From Halosimplex salinum (lineage in GTDB: Archaea > Halobacteriota > Halobacteria > Halobacteriales > Haloarculaceae): a DNA stretch of 64,000 nucleotides. The notes beneath the pieces are model-generated. The model had not been told where the DNA came from, did no database searches, and worked only from the letters and a program-made list of their open reading frames with translations. Numbering within the stretch: position 1 is the stretch's first letter; each line of letters starts with the position of its first letter. The translations under genes and the position numbers were made by a program. Below, in pieces: positions 4,442 through 11,325 of the stretch. Where the stretch lies: contig NZ_QWGG01000001.1 of assembly GCF_003730195.1 (NCBI RefSeq), positions 682,001 to 746,000 of the forward strand, written 5' to 3'.

Positions 4442-4578
4442 ACTAGCGTCGTCGCAACTCGGTCTCAAATGCTTTCCCCCTCCCGCTCCGCGGACGACGG
4501 CCCGACCCGTGAGCTATCGAATCTGATACTCTCGCCGAAGCTGGTTTACCGCCGGATCGCAGTATCTCCGAGCATACG

Positions 4579-5145
4579 ATGGCAGGTGTCGGCCGGCGCG
4601 CACGGTGCGAAGACGAGGGCCACGACCGGTCGGACTCCCCGACACACGACCGGTCGGACTCCCCGACACACGACCGGTCGGGCCCCTCGACCCACGACCG
4701 GATGAAGCGCCCGACCCACGAACACCCGGACCGCGGCGTCTCCGAGTTCGCCGGCGTCGCCATCCTCGTCGCGATAACGATCCTGGTCACGGCGTCGGTC
4801 GGGCTGTTCGTGCTCGTCGATCCCGGCTCCGAGAGCGCTGGTCCCGACGCCAACTTCACCTTCGACTACGTCGATACCTCGTCGGTCCTCATCGTCTCAC
4901 ACGACCGCGGCGAGTCGTTGACCGCCGGGAACCTCACGCTCAGGAGCGGCGACACGAGGGCCGGCTGGGCGGAGATCGCCAACACCGAGAACTCGACGGT
5001 GGTCGAACCCGGCTCGACGATACAGCTGAGCCGCCGCAACGCCTTCGGGCGCCCCGTCTCGCCGCGGGACAAGGTGTTCGTCCTCCACACGCCGCCGGTC
5101 GGCAACGAGACGGTGCTGGACAAGTGGGAAGGCTCCGGCGGCTGA
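4579..5145 (+). CDS. type IV pilin-like protein with repeat-bearing leader
   Basis: The sequence RGVSEFAGVAILVAITILVTASVGLFVLV is an archaeal class III signal peptide: a basic residue and Gly, the cleavage site, SEFAG and then a 20-residue hydrophobic stretch. A beta-rich exported domain of about 100 residues follows. The product should be cleaved by the prepilin peptidase and assembled in a pilus-like structure or held at the surface. The start is ambiguous. From 4579 the leader is about 50 residues and contains in-frame 8-residue repeats (HDRSDSPT, HDRSDSPT, HDRSGPST, HDRMKRPT). From the ATG at 4702 the leader is a conventional 12 residues. The in-frame repeat phase favours translation from 4579; the shorter leader is more usual for pilins. 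Confidence 0.7.
   Translation: MAGVGRRARCEDEGHDRSDSPTHDRSDSPTHDRSGPSTHDRMKRPTHEHPDRGVSEFAGVAILVAITILVTASVGLFVLVDPGSESAGPDANFTFDYVDTSSVLIVSHDRGESLTAGNLTLRSGDTRAGWAEIANTENSTVVEPGSTIQLSRRNAFGRPVSPRDKVFVLHTPPVGNETVLDKWEGSGG
4621..4716 (+). repeat. 24-bp tandem repeat, four copies (two perfect)
   Basis: Units at 4621-4644 and 4645-4668 are identical. Units at 4669-4692 and 4693-4716 are diverged. Each begins CACGACCGGT or CACGACCGGA and encodes an 8-residue HDR-x5 unit. The array ends just before the prepilin cleavage region of the pilin-like gene. Confidence 0.9.
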
Positions 5146-5166
5146 GACCGGTTCGGACGGGTCCGG

Positions 5167-8061
5167 CTACCCCTTGATGTTACACACCGGGAACGTCCGG
5201 GCGACGCGGTCGCCGATGCCCAGTGCGTCCGAGACCCGGACGACTTCGTCCACGTCCTTGTAGACGCCGGGCGCCTCCTCGGCGACCGTGGCGCCGCTCT
5301 GGGCCTTCACGTAGACGTGGTCCTGCTCGCGCAGGTCGTCCTGCACGTCGCCGCCCCAGAACTCCTGTTTGGCCTGCGTCCGACTCATCAGTCGGCCCGC
5401 GCCGTGGGCCGTCGACCCGAACGTCTCCGAGAGCGACTGCTCGCCGCCCCGGAGGACGTAGCTCCCCGCGCCCATGCTCCCCGGGATGATGATCGGCTGG
5501 CCCACGTCGCTGTAGGCCGGCGGCAGTTCGGGTCGCCCGGCGGGGAACGCCCGCGTCGCCCCCTTCCGATGGACGAACAGTTCGCGTTCTTCCCCGTCCT
5601 CGACCTCGTGGGTCTCCTTCTTCGCGATGTTGTGGGCCACGTCGTACAGCAGGTCCATCTCCATCTCGGTGTGCGAGCGGTCGAACACCTTCTCGAAGAC
5701 CTGCCGGACCTGGTGCATGATCAGCTGTCGGTTCACCCACGCGAAGTTGATGGCGGCGCACATCGCGCCGTAGTAGTCTTCGGCGAGCTGTGAGCCGGCG
5801 GGCGCCGCCGCGAGTTCCTTGTCCGGCAACTGCTGAAGCAGCCCCGCGTGGGTCTGTTCGATCTCGCGGAGGTAGTCCGTACACACCTGGTGGCCCAGCC
5901 CGCGCGACCCGCAGTGGATCAGGACGACGATCTGGTCCTCGGAGAGGCCGAACTCCGCGGCCACGTCGTCGCGGTACACGTCCGTCACGCGCTGGACTTC
6001 GAGGAAGTGGTTGCCGCTCCCCAGACTCCCGATCTGGTTCTTCCCGCGGTCCTTGGCCTTCTGTGAGACCCGGCTGGGATCGGAGTCCGGCCGGACGCCC
6101 TCGTCCTCGCAGTGTTCGAGGTCCTCCGGGACGGCGTAGCCGTTCTCCAGCGCCCACTCCATCCCGCGGTCGAGGATGGCCTCGACGTCGTCGGCGGTCC
6201 CCTCGTGGACGCCGCCCCCGCCCAGCCCCGACGGGACGTTCGCGAACAGGGCGTCCACGAGTTCCTCCTCGCGGCCCTGCACGTCGTCGTACGTGAGATT
6301 CGTCTTCATCATTCGGACGCCGCAGTTCGAGACGACGAAGCCGTTCGCGACGAAGTTGTGCGCCTCGTGACTGACGCCGATGTCGTACACCTCTTTCCGT
6401 CCAGCTGGGTCAATAGCGACGACCTCGTCGGGTATCGCGAGATCGTCCCCGACTTCGACCTGCTCGCAGTATTCCTCGAAACCGGGGAACGCCTTCCCCG
6501 GACGAGGCCTGCCGTCACGGCCGCCCCAGATGCTCCGCTCCACGAAACGGCCGTTGATGTCGTACTCCGCCTTGATATCGCCGGGTTCACTCCCGCCGTC
6601 CGCGAGCGTCTGTGCCTCCGACGCGATCTCCTCTCTGCGTTCGATCTCTCGCTCCTTCGTACGGAGATACTGGATCGCTTTCACCGAGCGCCGCCGCTTC
6701 TTTTGATTGTATCGGTATCCAACCTGACTGAAGAATCGTAGCAGATTCTTCGAATCGTTCTTCACGCCGAGTCGAAGCCGAACCGTGTCGTGCTTGCTGT
6801 TCGAGTCGGTTTCGAACCGTTCGATCTCGTTCGTCTCGATTCCGAGACTGCCGAGGAACTCACGCATGTCGTCGTAGAACTGGAAGCCGTCCTCTGCCGT
6901 CCCGACCGTTCTCGTTTGTGAGACCTTCGGGCAGTAGAGGTTTTTATCGTGCTGAGCTGACGGCTCGTTCATCTCGGCACCGAAGTATGCACTGTAGAAC
7001 AGTGCGCGCTGCCAGTCGGTGAGCCTGTCGAGGAATTCGGGCGACGAGTAGCCGGATTCGACTTTCGGGCCCTCCGGTGCCCCGAGCGCTACGAGCAGTC
7101 GCCGGAACGCTTTCGATGTCGTCTTGAAACTGTACTCCGTCCGCTCGAACTCGTTCCCGTTGACCTCGTGACTCCGGTCGCGCTCGTAAATCTTGGACGG
7201 CTTGAAACCGACCTCCCGAACGTCGCTCCGGACTGCTTTGAGGTCCTCGGGCTCGGCGTAGAACCAGACCTGTCCAGGCCCGCCGTAGGAACCGTCACCG
7301 AGGAAGAACCCGAGTATCTTCAGCAGGTGGTTGAACTCGTCGTCCGTCGAGGACAGCGGCAACACGTCGCGGTCTTCGAGGACTCTGACGAGTTGCGGGT
7401 TCTCGTCTTCGAAATCTTCCTTCGTCAGTACCGTGAACTCCGAAGGCTCCTCGTGGTCGATACCTTCGAAAGGCTGGACTCTGACTTCGTCTCCGGTGGA
7501 GAGGTCGTCCAACTCTGTCATCCCTTCGGGCGTACGGAACGGATGATCTCCCGTCGCTTCGATGCGATGACCAGTCGCCGTCTCGACTTCGTACACTGGC
7601 TTCTCCTCGGATTGTGTAAACAGACGGATATCAGACGGGACCAGATCGTCACCGTCTGCGACCATCGCTTGCTCCTCCTCGAAACGCCCCTCTAGATTCC
7701 GGAGTTCCGTGCGCCGTCCGAACGACAGCCGAACCTCCGTGCCACCCGGCAAGCAGTTGATGTCGTAGCCGACCGCTCCGGGCGAAATACAGCCGTTTTC
7801 GGTATCGATGCCGGCGACGCCGCCGACGGGGAAGCCGTACCCCTGGTGGCCGTCGGGCATACAGACGGCGTACTTACGAACGCCGGGGAGGTGCGTCGCG
7901 TTCTTCAGTTGCTGGAGCGTCTTGTCGTCGCTGATCTCGTCGAGCAGGTCCTCGCTCGCGAGCACGCGCGCCGGTCGGTTCATCCCGCCCTCCTGTGGAA
8001 TCTCCCAGACGTAGTCCCTGACTTTCTCCAGGGTGATGCCGTCCGCGTCGTACGTGGTCAT
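5167..8061 (-). CDS. rtcB: RNA-splicing ligase RtcB interrupted by an intein
   Basis: A 964-residue precursor. Residues 1-102 and 580-964 join to a normal RtcB of about 487 residues. RtcB joins 2',3'-cyclic phosphate (or 3'-phosphate) and 5'-OH RNA ends through a GMP-histidine intermediate and seals archaeal tRNA exons. Family motifs include PDGHQGYGFPVGGVAG, YDIN/CGVR (the metal-ligand Cys, split by the intein), GSLGSGNHFLEVQ, VLIHCGSRGLGHQVCTDY, PIIIPGSMGAGSYVLRG and TAHGAGRLMSR (the guanylylated His). It lies three genes from the minus-strand start of a group that also encodes archease, its activating partner. A TATA-like CCTATTCC is centred about 27 bases upstream of the ATG. Confidence 0.95.
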   Translation of the reverse strand: MTTYDADGITLEKVRDYVWEIPQEGGMNRPARVLASEDLLDEISDDKTLQQLKNATHLPGVRKYAVCMPDGHQGYGFPVGGVAGIDTENGCISPGAVGYDINCLPGGTEVRLSFGRRTELRNLEGRFEEEQAMVADGDDLVPSDIRLFTQSEEKPVYEVETATGHRIEATGDHPFRTPEGMTELDDLSTGDEVRVQPFEGIDHEEPSEFTVLTKEDFEDENPQLVRVLEDRDVLPLSSTDDEFNHLLKILGFFLGDGSYGGPGQVWFYAEPEDLKAVRSDVREVGFKPSKIYERDRSHEVNGNEFERTEYSFKTTSKAFRRLLVALGAPEGPKVESGYSSPEFLDRLTDWQRALFYSAYFGAEMNEPSAQHDKNLYCPKVSQTRTVGTAEDGFQFYDDMREFLGSLGIETNEIERFETDSNSKHDTVRLRLGVKNDSKNLLRFFSQVGYRYNQKKRRRSVKAIQYLRTKEREIERREEIASEAQTLADGGSEPGDIKAEYDINGRFVERSIWGGRDGRPRPGKAFPGFEEYCEQVEVGDDLAIPDEVVAIDPAGRKEVYDIGVSHEAHNFVANGFVVSNCGVRMMKTNLTYDDVQGREEELVDALFANVPSGLGGGGVHEGTADDVEAILDRGMEWALENGYAVPEDLEHCEDEGVRPDSDPSRVSQKAKDRGKNQIGSLGSGNHFLEVQRVTDVYRDDVAAEFGLSEDQIVVLIHCGSRGLGHQVCTDYLREIEQTHAGLLQQLPDKELAAAPAGSQLAEDYYGAMCAAINFAWVNRQLIMHQVRQVFEKVFDRSHTEMEMDLLYDVAHNIAKKETHEVEDGEERELFVHRKGATRAFPAGRPELPPAYSDVGQPIIIPGSMGAGSYVLRGGEQSLSETFGSTAHGAGRLMSRTQAKQEFWGGDVQDDLREQDHVYVKAQSGATVAEEAPGVYKDVDEVVRVSDALGIGDRVARTFPVCNIKG
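6325..7755 (-). mobile_element. 477-residue intein with LAGLIDADG-type endonuclease region
   Basis: The intein occupies precursor residues 103-579. It starts CLPGGTEV (splicing block A, nucleophile Cys), has ATGDHPF (block B, T-x-x-H), and ends EAHNFVANGFVVSN before Cys580 (+1 nucleophile). The C-terminal Asn is present, but the penultimate residue is Ser instead of the usual His. The endonuclease region has one good LAGLIDADG-like helix (ILGFFLGDGSY, intein residues 147-157) and a weaker second one (ALFYSAYFGAEM, 251-262). A helical, possibly DNA-binding segment lies between about 360 and 420. The base composition is visibly more AT-rich than the flanking exteins, which suggests a separate history. 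Splicing would rebuild the RtcB metal site. Confidence 0.93.
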
Positions 8062-8109
8062 ACCCGAGTGTCCGCCCGGCGCGCCGGAATAGGTTTCGCT
8101 GTCGTCCGG

Positions 8110-9204
8110 TCAGTCGGCCGCCTGCGTCGACTCCCGGTCGGACTGCAGGCGATTGCCCGCAGCGGAGAGGAACGCGTCCAGCGAGAGCGGCCCAGCACCG
8201 AGGGTGAAGACGGCCGAGATCATGCCGAACAGGGTGATGTGGGCGAGCACGGGGTCGTCAGGGAGACCGAAGAGCGTCATCACGAGCATGGTGAACGCGA
8301 CCGCTGCCGCACCGCGGGTGTAGTACCCCGCGATCAGCAGCAGTCCGACGCCGATCTCCGTCAGGCCGGCGCCGAGCACCCACAGGCCGGGGTCCACCGG
8401 GACGACGCTCGTCAGGTCGTACTTCTCGACGACGAGGACGGCGCGCGAGGGGTTCGCGAGCTTCTCGACGAGACCGAGGTACACGAAGGCGAGCCCGATG
8501 CCGACGCGGAGGACGGTCGGGACGTAGCGCTCGTACGGTCCAACGCGGGCCGAGAACCGCTCGGCGCTGCCGTGGATCGGGTCGATACGACCGTAGTACG
8601 TCCCCTGCGTTCCGGCGACCTCGCCGAGCATGTGGTCCGCGCTGGGGCGGCCGCTCCCGACGAGGATGATGGCGAGGAAGCCGGGGACGTACTCGACGGC
8701 CAGCAGCAGTTCCGGGTTGAACGCGAGCGCCGCGAGATAGGTCACGAGGCCGGCCGCCGCGACGACGCGGGTCCCGAGCCCGAACAGGAGGAGGAACCCG
8801 AGCGCGACCTGGAGGACCCGCGCTTCGACGGGGACGGCGGGACTGAAGAAGTAGCCCGCGAACCCCGCGCCCACCAGCGGGAGCCCCAGACTCAGGCGCA
8901 ACATCCACGGGACGAACTCGCGATACGACGCGAGCGCCGCCCGGAGCGCGTCGATATCGGGTATCTGCGGTCTGACGACCAGTAACGCGACCAGGAGCCC
9001 GACGACGGACAGGGTCCCGCCCCCGACCAGCGCGGCGTTCAGCGGCTCGGAGAGCACTTCGACGGCGAACTCGATGGCGTCGCGCGTCGCGGTCGGTGGG
9101 TCGGTCACGTAATCGACGTGTGCGCTCGCCCGACCGGAGACCGCTGCGAGCCAGAACACACCGAAAACACTGCCCAGCACCGCCCGTCTCCCCGTTTCAC
9201 TCAT
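8110..9204 (-). CDS. DoxX-family integral membrane protein
   Basis: A 364-residue protein with a cleavable-looking N-terminal hydrophobic segment (AVLGSVFGVFWLAAVSGRASA), then eight or so membrane helices arranged as two DoxX-like four-helix halves. The halves are LSLGLPLVGAGFAGYFF...LGFLLLFGLGTRVVAAAGLVTYLA and LRVGIGLAFVYLGLVEKLANP...LWVLGAGLTEIGVGLLLIAGYYTRGAA. DoxX-like proteins are small quinone-pathway or membrane redox proteins. The function of this duplicated form is not known. It sits between archease and rtcB on the same strand, with gaps of 73 and 48 bases. A TTTATC element centred 27 bases upstream of the ATG suggests its own promoter. Confidence 0.78.
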   Translation of the reverse strand: MSETGRRAVLGSVFGVFWLAAVSGRASAHVDYVTDPPTATRDAIEFAVEVLSEPLNAALVGGGTLSVVGLLVALLVVRPQIPDIDALRAALASYREFVPWMLRLSLGLPLVGAGFAGYFFSPAVPVEARVLQVALGFLLLFGLGTRVVAAAGLVTYLAALAFNPELLLAVEYVPGFLAIILVGSGRPSADHMLGEVAGTQGTYYGRIDPIHGSAERFSARVGPYERYVPTVLRVGIGLAFVYLGLVEKLANPSRAVLVVEKYDLTSVVPVDPGLWVLGAGLTEIGVGLLLIAGYYTRGAAAVAFTMLVMTLFGLPDDPVLAHITLFGMISAVFTLGAGPLSLDAFLSAAGNRLQSDRESTQAAD

Positions 9205-9277
9205 AGCGGAACCTAGCGACTGTGCGGGGATAAAGGCCACAGTATCCGGGGCTGGTCGGAGGGTGTCGCCGGCCGTC

Positions 9278-9691
9278 TCACACGTCGAAGACGACGTAGG
9301 CGTGCCAGCCGTCGTCGGTCTCCGAGAGGTCCATCTCGGAGTAGGTGACCGCCTTCAGGTCGCGGGCGTCGACGCTGTCGAGCGGGATGCCGCGGGCGGA
9401 GCAGTCCACGCGCCACTCGCCCTCAGCCTCGCCGACGGCCGCCTCGTTGTCGACCGGGAGGACGCCGCGCACGTCCCGTTCGTAGATGAGTTCGTCGAGG
9501 TAGTCGAACAGGAGCGCCTCGCGGTTCTCGGCAGCGACCGTGGTCTCGAAGCGCTCGCCGCCCTCCGCCGGGATCTCGTCGCACATCGCGGCGGCCATGC
9601 CGTCCGCGACCGCGCCGAACACCTCGCCGAGCGACTCGCCGGTCGCCTCGACCGCCACGTCGGCGGTGTGCTCGCGGAGGTCGAAGCTCAC
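9278..9691 (-). CDS. archease, RtcB activating protein
   Basis: A 137-residue protein with the archease pattern: an N-terminal FDLREHTADVAVEATGESLGEVFGAVADGMAAAM, the mid motif REALLFDYLDELIYERD, and the acidic C-terminal metal-site region AVTYSEMDLSETDDGWHAYVVFDV. Archease speeds RtcB guanylylation and multiple turnover. Its presence a few genes upstream of rtcB on the same strand supports both calls. The start overlaps the stop of the DUF502 gene by four bases (ATGA), which suggests translational coupling. The length is that of the family. Confidence 0.93.
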   Translation of the reverse strand: MSFDLREHTADVAVEATGESLGEVFGAVADGMAAAMCDEIPAEGGERFETTVAAENREALLFDYLDELIYERDVRGVLPVDNEAAVGEAEGEWRVDCSARGIPLDSVDARDLKAVTYSEMDLSETDDGWHAYVVFDV

Positions 9692-10731
9692 GCGTCACCA
9701 CCCGCCGCGTCGCCGTCGGTCGCGGCGTCCGCGGCCGACGATCCCTCGCCGGGCTGTTCGGCTTCGGCGTTCACTTCGGCCTCCGCCCCGGATTCGGTGT
9801 CGCCGAGTTCGGTCTGGTCGAGCATGTAGTGCCGGACCGCTTTTTCGTCCTCGACTTCGGACTCGTCGAGGTCGGGATGGATCGCGGCGAACTCCCGGTA
9901 GGCCTGCTTGCGGATGTCCTCGGCCGCGTCGCCGGTGAAGTCGCTCAGGTCGTCGACGGTCCGGGTCCCCCACGCGCCCAGCCCCTCGACGCCGCCGCGG
10001 GCCTGTTTCCGGATCGCGTCGAAGTCGACCAGCTCTCCGTCCGGGGCGTCGGCGCCGCTATCGCCGGTCGCGACACCGCTGGTGACCAGCGATCTGACGC
10101 CCTCTTCCACGGTCATGTCCACGTCGTACACGCGGTCAGCGGAGACGTGGACGACGTATCCGCCCATCACGGGATTCGGAGCCAGGGGCATGAACAGCGT
10201 CGTCACGTCGTCGTGCCCGGTCGTCTCGTCGATGGTCGGCGGCGGGTCGGCGGTGACGAAGGCGATGGAGTACGACCCCTCAGTGGGGAACTCGACGAGT
10301 TTCACTTCGCGGAAGCTCTGGGTGTCGTTCGACAGGAGAAGTTCGGTCATCTCGTTGAAACTGGTGTAGACGGAGCCGATACCCGGGATACGGGACATCG
10401 CGGTGTCGAACACGCGCTGGAACCCGTCGCCGGAGCGGTTCTCCGCGACCAGCCCGACCGCGAAGATGAGGGCGACGAGAGTGAACACGGCCAGCAGTTC
10501 CATCACGTACGAGGGGAGGTCGGTCCCGAGGCCGAACTCGGTGCCGAGGAAGGTGACCACGGGGCTGATGGCCCGCAGGATGAAGTTCACGACGAACGCG
10601 AGGATCATCACGGTGACCAGCAGGGGGATGGTCAGCGCCGCGCCGGTGAGAAACACCTGCCGGACCTTCGCAGAGAGAGCGGTCCGCGGGTCGCCGGCGT
10701 CGGGAGCCGGTCCAGCGGAGAGTACGACCAT
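9688..10731 (-). CDS. DUF502-family membrane protein
   Basis: A 347-residue protein starting MVVLSAGPAPDAGD. Two membrane helices are visible: VFLTGAALTIPLLVTVMILAFVVNFIL at about residues 27-53 and YVMELLAVFTLVALIFAVGLVAE at about 75-98. The DUF502 core follows: RIPGIGSVYTSFNEMTELL, the strand VKLVEFPTEGSYSIAFVT, and LFMPLAPNPVMGGYVVHVSADRVYDVDMTVEEGVRSLVTSG. The last 100 residues are acidic and poorly conserved-looking. The molecular function of DUF502 is unknown; bacterial and plant homologues are membrane associated. It is the first gene of the unit that continues into archease. The alternative upstream ATG five codons earlier is less likely, given an ACTTTCG element about 27 bases before this ATG. 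Confidence 0.82.
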   Translation of the reverse strand: MVVLSAGPAPDAGDPRTALSAKVRQVFLTGAALTIPLLVTVMILAFVVNFILRAISPVVTFLGTEFGLGTDLPSYVMELLAVFTLVALIFAVGLVAENRSGDGFQRVFDTAMSRIPGIGSVYTSFNEMTELLLSNDTQSFREVKLVEFPTEGSYSIAFVTADPPPTIDETTGHDDVTTLFMPLAPNPVMGGYVVHVSADRVYDVDMTVEEGVRSLVTSGVATGDSGADAPDGELVDFDAIRKQARGGVEGLGAWGTRTVDDLSDFTGDAAEDIRKQAYREFAAIHPDLDESEVEDEKAVRHYMLDQTELGDTESGAEAEVNAEAEQPGEGSSAADAATDGDAAGGDA

Positions 10732-10806
10732 ACAAATCCCTCTCACCGCGACTGGCCGAAAGTCTTGCGGGGCTGGTAGGTCGGTCGTGCGGCGCCGCGC
10801 CGATGG

Positions 10807-10816
10807 AATTATAGTG
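10807..10816 (+). promoter_or_regulatory. TATA element of the GNAT gene
   Basis: AATTATAG is centred about 29 bases before the GTG start, consistent with a leaderless transcript. Confidence 0.6.
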
Positions 10817-10839
10817 ACTTACCCGCTACGGACGGGGTA

Positions 10840-11325
10840 GTGAGCGTCAACGTCGAGCGACGAGTCGTCGATCCGGGGGACGCCGACTACGTCGAGCAGG
10901 CCTGGCAACTCAAAGAGCGCATCCGCGCCGACGAAGGCGTGTTGCGCCAGCGCAGAGGGTTCTTCGAGAACGCCTACGAGCGCTCGACGGCCTATCTCTT
11001 CGTCGACCGGTCTGACCGCGGCAAACTCGTCGGCTTCGCCGCCGTCCGCCGCGACGGCTACATCCTCTTTCTCGCCGTCGACAGCGCGTATCAGGGCGAA
11101 GGGTTCGGCGAAGCGCTGGTCGCCCGCGTCGCCGAGGACTACAGCTCCGTTACCTGTCACGCGCGGACGACCAACCGCGATGCCCTGCGGTTCTACCAGC
11201 ACATCGGCTTCTCCATCGAGCGCCGCATCGACAACTACTACGAGGACGGCGGCGACGCCTACTACCTCAAACTCGGCGAGGAGGAGGGGCTCGCCGACCG
11301 GCTGTCGAACCTGCTCGGCGGATAG
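10840..11325 (+). CDS. GNAT-family N-acetyltransferase
   Basis: A 161-residue protein with the GNAT fold: the central strand and acetyl-CoA loop FLAVDSAYQGEGFGEALVARVAED (Q/R-x-x-G-x-G/A region, here QGEGFG) and the late motif NRDALRFYQHIGFSIERRIDNYY. It should transfer an acetyl group from acetyl-CoA to an unidentified amine, possibly a protein N-terminus or a small molecule. It starts with GTG; AATTATAG is centred about 29 bases upstream, a textbook leaderless arrangement. The gene stands alone between divergent and convergent neighbours. Confidence 0.85.
   Translation: MSVNVERRVVDPGDADYVEQAWQLKERIRADEGVLRQRRGFFENAYERSTAYLFVDRSDRGKLVGFAAVRRDGYILFLAVDSAYQGEGFGEALVARVAEDYSSVTCHARTTNRDALRFYQHIGFSIERRIDNYYEDGGDAYYLKLGEEEGLADRLSNLLGG

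Follow-up and report, generated by a model that had tools for sequence, protein, structure and literature searches.

The rtcB gene in the analysed stretch of Halosimplex salinum DNA (the window: 64,000 nucleotides, positions 682,001 to 746,000 of contig NZ_QWGG01000001.1) is interrupted by 477 codons directly ahead of the codon for a metal-ligand cysteine of the RNA ligase RtcB. This raises the question of what the insertion is, how an active ligase could be made in its presence and whether the element moves between genomes. We regard it as a self-splicing and mobile class 1 intein with a LAGLIDADG homing endonuclease, belonging to an rtcB-site family found also in Thermococci and other archaea, and put the probability of this reading at about 93%. 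Its anatomy, its conservation, purifying selection, a patchy distribution and conflict between intein and host trees are observed; the splicing chemistry, the cutting and the homing of this copy are inferred.

Coordinates are window positions, and intein residues are numbered from intein Cys1. The precursor, an open reading frame of 964 amino acids (5167..8061, minus strand, as are all its parts), matches the Pfam family RtcB PF01139 in two stretches (534.4 bits) with Intein_splicing PF14890 between them (45.8 bits vs a cut-off of 35.8), and the NCBIfam models intein_Nterm and intein_Cterm match at residues 103-177 and 557-580, each above its cut-off. A preliminary description had placed a 477-residue intein at 6325-7755 between YDIN and CGVR, and together with an intein alignment these matches bear out the coordinates to the base: the intein (6325..7755) spans precursor residues 103-579, is flanked by GAVGYDIN and CGVRMMK and runs from Cys1 to Ser476-Asn477. 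The N-extein (7756..8061, RtcB residues 1-102, with GYDIN at its end) and the C-extein (5167..6324, starting with CGVR, +1 Cys codon at 6322-6324) were delimited by alignment with Pyrococcus horikoshii RtcB (PhoRtcB, structure 1uc2).

The inner motifs were compared in an alignment of 60 complete inteins, 55 from the host's own GTDB order (hereafter the order) and 5 from Thermococci. The 55 leave out L076 (genome G127, broken frame) and the incomplete copies of G007, G108, G113 and G126, and include L075, whose host part is frame-broken downstream and which is absent from the trees. Cys1, terminal Asn477 and the +1 Cys are those of a class 1 intein, and block B (ATGDHPF, 7537..7557) has the TxxH pattern as T68-x-x-H71 (His71 codon 7543-7545). 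Invariant in 60/60 are Cys1, His71, Asp154, Asp458, His463, His466 and Asn477. The two LAGLIDADG helices carry one acid each (Asp154 and Glu261 in 55/55 order copies): the first motif, LLKILGFFLGDGSYG, lies at 7282..7326 (Asp154 codon 7294-7296) and the second, RALFYSAYFGAEMN, at 6967..7008 (Glu261 codon 6973-6975), both placed by alignment and structural model. The last part of block F together with block G (HNFVANGFVVSN) occupies 6325..6360, with Ser476 (6328-6330) and Asn477 (6325-6327); the penultimate residue is thus Ser in place of the usual class 1 His. NCBIfam also holds a model for the whole fusion, NF038162 ("intein-containing RtcB family protein"), which aligns precursor residues 11-964 with model positions 2-961 of 961 at 1005.7 bits, below its curated cut-off of 1150. 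The intein is therefore placed in the rtcB-site family by its insertion before the metal-ligand Cys and by homology, including this full-length profile match; its score does not qualify it for NF038162.

The host protein is RtcB: besides the PF01139 score above cut-off, residues 11-487 of the extein align with 1uc2 (E 3e-154), and the segments YDINCG, GSGNHF, GSRGLGH, AHNI and HGAGR occur in both. The +1 Cys stands opposite Cys98, and the core of the preliminary description, a large intein whose splicing Cys doubles as the metal-ligand Cys, is right. According to a review (PMC10630183), Cys98 of PhoRtcB is a ligand to both Mn ions and Asp95 binds one; mutation of such ligands abolished ligase activity in the Pyrobaculum aerophilum enzyme, as did mutation of the conserved Cys in the E. 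coli and human enzymes. PhoRtcB is itself a protein-splicing product with its splice junction at Cys98 (PMC4150793), so the intein of the P. horikoshii gene (PH1602) sits in the same gene and at the equivalent site, as the preliminary description had stated. Because the intein parts two metal ligands, here Asp100 and Cys103, there is a strong case that the unspliced precursor is inactive.

The host genome has one PF01139 gene, detected as the two pieces of the frame at 5167..8061, and a search of the genome for a further one found none. A copy that failed to splice would leave the host with no recognised RtcB; unless some unrelated ligase stands in for it, splicing is thus very likely to occur in vivo. 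Among 24 family genomes with an intact, single-contig intein-bearing rtcB, PF01139 matched twice in 19 and four times in 5; among the rows listed, we read two matches as the two pieces of one gene, and incomplete genomes may hide paralogues. The preliminary description had proposed that the speed of splicing could limit tRNA maturation, a hypothesis that no result here favours or disfavours. A tRNA search gave 45 matches in the host genome; ARAGORN returned none at 2 candidate intron loci and one at each of 4 controls, and among the candidates checked no intron-bearing tRNA was located. In one intein-bearing genome, G379, a second RtcB-like gene (G379:C23:22044-23469, L260 and L265, 58% identity) carries a TGA stop, is broken between its two pieces and appears to be a decaying paralogue.

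On the self-splicing reading, Cys1 of the 964-residue precursor would attack the upstream bond, the chain would pass to the +1 Cys that later becomes a metal ligand, and Asn477 would cyclise without help from a penultimate His. The joined exteins would form a 487-residue RtcB in which the metal site can assemble. Empty rtcB alleles are the presumed target of the endonuclease, with a cut at the YDIN|CGVR codons; repair would then copy the intein into the cut allele, with sporadic loss afterwards.

The comparison with intein-free relatives that the preliminary description had suggested found empty alleles close by. The genome samples used here overlap. In the genus, 6/8 genomes (the host's own included in the 8) have an uninterrupted RtcB at 90-93% identity, and the intein occurs in the host and, as a fragment, in congener G007. 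RtcB was found at E <= 1e-20 in 111/146 family genomes and the intein in 30; in six of these the contig or the reading frame is broken. In the order sample, RtcB occurs in 351/392 genomes and an intein match in 45, or 44 without G190, which has no RtcB match; 307/351 RtcB-bearing genomes lack an RtcB-intein match. In a phylum-wide sample, a mixed intein profile matched 17/392 genomes: 8 matches from the order and 5 from families f21 and f22 lie in RtcB, and the remaining 4 include one in rpolA. Thermococci contributed five complete inteins at the same junction (L146, L147, L148 and L150 from Thermococcus, L151 from a Thermococci archaeon) and two with only the C-terminal intein part (L149 and L152), out of 80 loci kept from 135 candidates. 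Order copies share their junction with those of Thermococci and of families f21 and f22, and all 55 complete order copies are in frame with RtcB at each junction and have the +1 Cys. The element is genuine and its kind well known; its site was known too, and the copy described here is a new member.

Literature searches, which did not extend to subscription papers or InBase, turned up no publication on an rtcB intein of haloarchaea. A 118-genome survey lists 24 halobacterial intein alleles in its Table 1 (PMC4071816), and rtcB is not one of them, yet the site is occupied in about 1 in 9 order-sample genomes. An annotated relative exists: the "intein-containing tRNA-splicing ligase RtcB" of Natrinema thermotolerans (CP031304.1) matches the whole precursor at 72.4% in one piece. 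The gene lies on a 987-kb replicon listed as a plasmid (360544-369074), with priS annotated under the same joined match, and a replicon of this sort could carry an rtcB intein allele. Haloarchaea such as Natrinema, Haloterrigena and Natrialba are among the best plasmid matches of the DNA and protein analysed here. A single-protein IMG/VR scan, with a reach limited to close relatives, gave no viral relative. An apparent second insertion site in RtcB, a split at residue 345 in G278 and G218, measured only about 90 bp and was rejected.

Among the 35/146 family genomes without a match to this RtcB at 1e-20 (e.g., G014, G016, G020, G066 and G093), 34 still encode a protein distantly similar to RtcB (best E between 1e-25 and 1e-32) and G105 has none; a match at 1e-20 is absent in 24/32 genomes of genus g3 and 4/7 of genus g8.

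The coincidence of the +1 residue with a metal-ligand Cys would also suit an intein retained as a regulator, with the oxidation state of that Cys or salt gating splicing and hence RtcB activity. The ligand Cys is reportedly oxidised in aerobically purified PhoRtcB and protected by PYROXD1 in human RtcB (PMC10630183), and titles in the reference list of PMC7765530 mention other haloarchaeal inteins whose splicing depends on salt. Against this stand the intein-free RtcB of most genus genomes and the 307 order genomes mentioned above, and curing Haloferax volcanii of its polB intein left the growth rate unchanged (PMC3024317), and we judge a retained regulator quite unlikely. Still less probable is a specific version in which an oxidation-prone +1 Cys and the fixed loss of the His, slowing Asn cyclisation, would maintain an inert precursor pool, shielding the ligase or regulating its supply under stress. 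Conditional splicing of the only RtcB found would tie protein splicing to RNA ligation.

Returning to the mobile intein, the residues at which this copy departs from the textbook pattern are traits of its clade. Position 476 is Ser in 55/55 order copies and His in 5/5 Thermococci, and position 261 is Glu in 55/55 and Asp in 5/5. In the second motif, here YSAYFGAEM, Glu replaces Asp and Met replaces Gly in all 55 (Ala precedes the Glu in 54 and Thr in 1), vs Asp-Gly in the five Thermococci. Hence the penultimate Ser singled out by the preliminary description is real, but neither it nor the second helix described there as weak is peculiar to this copy. Position 68 is Thr in 51/55 and Ser in the other 4 order copies and in 5/5 Thermococci. 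Two f21 copies have His and GADG. In f22, Ser and GAEM occur in three copies, and the first motif of one of these has Glu as well. The Ser/Glu copies of the order and f22 form one group in a quick tree (99), and a careful tree that included rpolA rows left a single origin of this type unresolved. Splicing is possible without the penultimate His, which is usual and not obligatory (PMC7664689).

The Glu-Met motif could alternatively mark a decaying endonuclease, i.e., an intein that splices but is inherited and lost without homing, and the divergence between the host copy and the G007 intein, which is about that of vertical descent, would fit this. However, the ratio of nonsynonymous to synonymous substitution rates (dN/dS) in the endonuclease region is 0.07-0.18 in 12/12 hand-picked close pairs, vs 0.04-0.23 for the host gene, and between the host copy and G007, outside the 12 pairs, it is 0.15 and 0.08 in two endonuclease pieces and 0.11 in the host gene. 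In the stretch 371-438 it is as high as 0.74 in one pair, with few changes. The endonuclease region is under purifying selection, the second helix included, and a dead endonuclease is disfavoured by these low ratios. Complete order copies range from 465 to 487 residues, with no mini-intein among the 55, and the trees discussed below need transfer within the order. Glu is moreover acidic, and I-DmoI, whose acids we take to be Asp21 and Glu117, is among the structural matches. Loss of endonuclease function is accordingly unlikely.

Structural comparison used an AlphaFold2 model built from six sequences, in which the endonuclease consists of two halves, each alpha-beta-beta-alpha-beta-beta-alpha, and the motif helices span 139-154 and 247-261. 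Its best matches are the TliVMA intein (Z 17.3, root-mean-square deviation (rmsd) 13.2 A) and PI-PfuI (Z 16.6, 11.7 A), and the large rmsd values mean that the domains lie differently from those of both proteins. I-DmoI matches with Z 16.4 and superposes on 165 residues with an rmsd of 2.8 A, and an entry titled as the I-DmoI E117A mutant is also among the matches.

Mobility within the order is indicated by the trees. On a log scale the inteins diverge about twice as much as their hosts (mean identity 0.59 vs 0.75, correlation 0.56, n = 55 including L075). In genus g25, the inteins of L099 and L103 are 52% identical to that of L124 at host identities of 86-89%; the three host RtcBs form one clade (99), whereas the inteins fall into two far-apart clades, and a single g25 intein clade was rejected in the approximately unbiased test (p-AU 3.2e-5 with 59 rows, 8.5e-49 with 23 rows), which points to transfer of inteins within the order. 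A single clade of ten family f4 inteins was also rejected (p 1.1e-6). Between phyla, the f21 inteins L269 and L270 interleave with Thermococci L150 and L151 in the best tree while their hosts are separate, which is a suggestion of transfer; a single Thermococci intein clade was not rejected (p 0.095). The intein is thus patchy and partly horizontal in its relatives, and does not occur in all of them at equal divergence and with normal composition.

Several points weigh against a self-splicing, mobile element. The g25 and f4 groups were chosen after distances and trees had been viewed, so that their p-values flatter, and in the 59-row set one of four such clade tests ran to completion. The structural model is mediocre overall (mean predicted local distance difference test (pLDDT) score 61.3, predicted template modelling score 0.59) with a good endonuclease, and its splicing ends, residues 1-51 and 455-477, have pLDDT < 50. 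DNA conservation at the insertion site is not unusual (64.5th percentile of 30-bp windows in 36 intein-free alleles). Finally, vertical descent is possible in the lineage to which this copy belongs: the nearest intein is that of congener G007, with an identity of 81-83%, while the pieces of the G007 host gene reach 86% and 96%. A weakly supported tree does not place the two hosts as sisters and requires 3 changes among 14 rows, and these data favour neither descent nor exchange within the genus.

Base composition was also considered as a sign of origin. The intein has a guanine-plus-cytosine (GC) content of 0.596 vs 0.675 in the extein, and of 0.751 vs 0.918 at third codon positions, in agreement with the preliminary description, and this contrast could speak for recent arrival from a low-GC donor. 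However, the intein is GC-poorer than its own host gene in 55/55 order copies (gap 0.07-19.9 points, mean 6.1, here 8.0), in 4/5 Thermococci and in 5/5 copies of f21 and f22, the exception being Thermococci L151 with an intein 10.6 points richer than its host gene. Low GC is a usual property of rtcB-site inteins and no peculiarity of this one; because it holds in 55/55 copies, it does not date the arrival and says little on the entry date, and recent acquisition was rejected as a conclusion from composition. None of the 54 other complete copies is closer than 68%, only G007 is nearer and no recent donor was seen, which makes a recent arrival highly improbable here. The widest gap of the 55 belongs to L072 of G124 (GC 0.503 in the intein, 0.700 in its host gene), a candidate recent arrival, whose intein is 61% identical to one whose host is 92% identical, a contrast that likewise points to transfer within the order.

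Compared with known systems, this intein is 30-34% identical to those of five Thermococci relatives (the PH1602 intein itself was not among them), which differ in the penultimate His and the second-motif Asp. The order's rpolA inteins, in RNA polymerase subunit A', are 28-30% identical over most or all of their length, with a second motif FGAEL and penultimate Ser or Asn. They lie in another gene and at another site and form a separate clade (100/100) of three rows, L136-L138, while L278, L280, L283 and L284 were missed in the tree. The polB intein of Haloferax volcanii is likewise haloarchaeal and its homing endonuclease works in vivo (PMC3024317), in a different gene; homing of the rtcB intein is only predicted. 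Like the rtcB intein, two further inteins of the host genome occupy conserved enzymes, with genes named by eye: L219 (G000:C24:84823-86187) in UDP-glucose dehydrogenase, ending VVHN, and L220 (G000:C21:514059-514283) in DNA polymerase II large subunit, ending SVKQ. Since these end in His-Asn and Lys-Gln, vs Ser-Asn here, the penultimate Ser is no general rule of the host. With one site, two splicing ends (His or Ser), two endonuclease acids (Asp or Glu) and empty alleles nearby, the rtcB inteins form a clean comparison set, in which splicing without the penultimate His and homing in the order become testable in one system.

Upstream of rtcB, and of interest as context only, lie a gene for an archease (9278..9691, minus strand, PF01951, 115.1 bits), from the RtcB activator family, and, between the two, one for a DoxX-family protein (8110..9240, minus strand, PF07681, 39.8 bits). 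An Rfam scan of window positions 4500-11000 gave no match. On the other side, a plus-strand open reading frame adjoining the end of rtcB opens with short tandem peptide repeats of the HDRSDSPT type (window 4579-4720).

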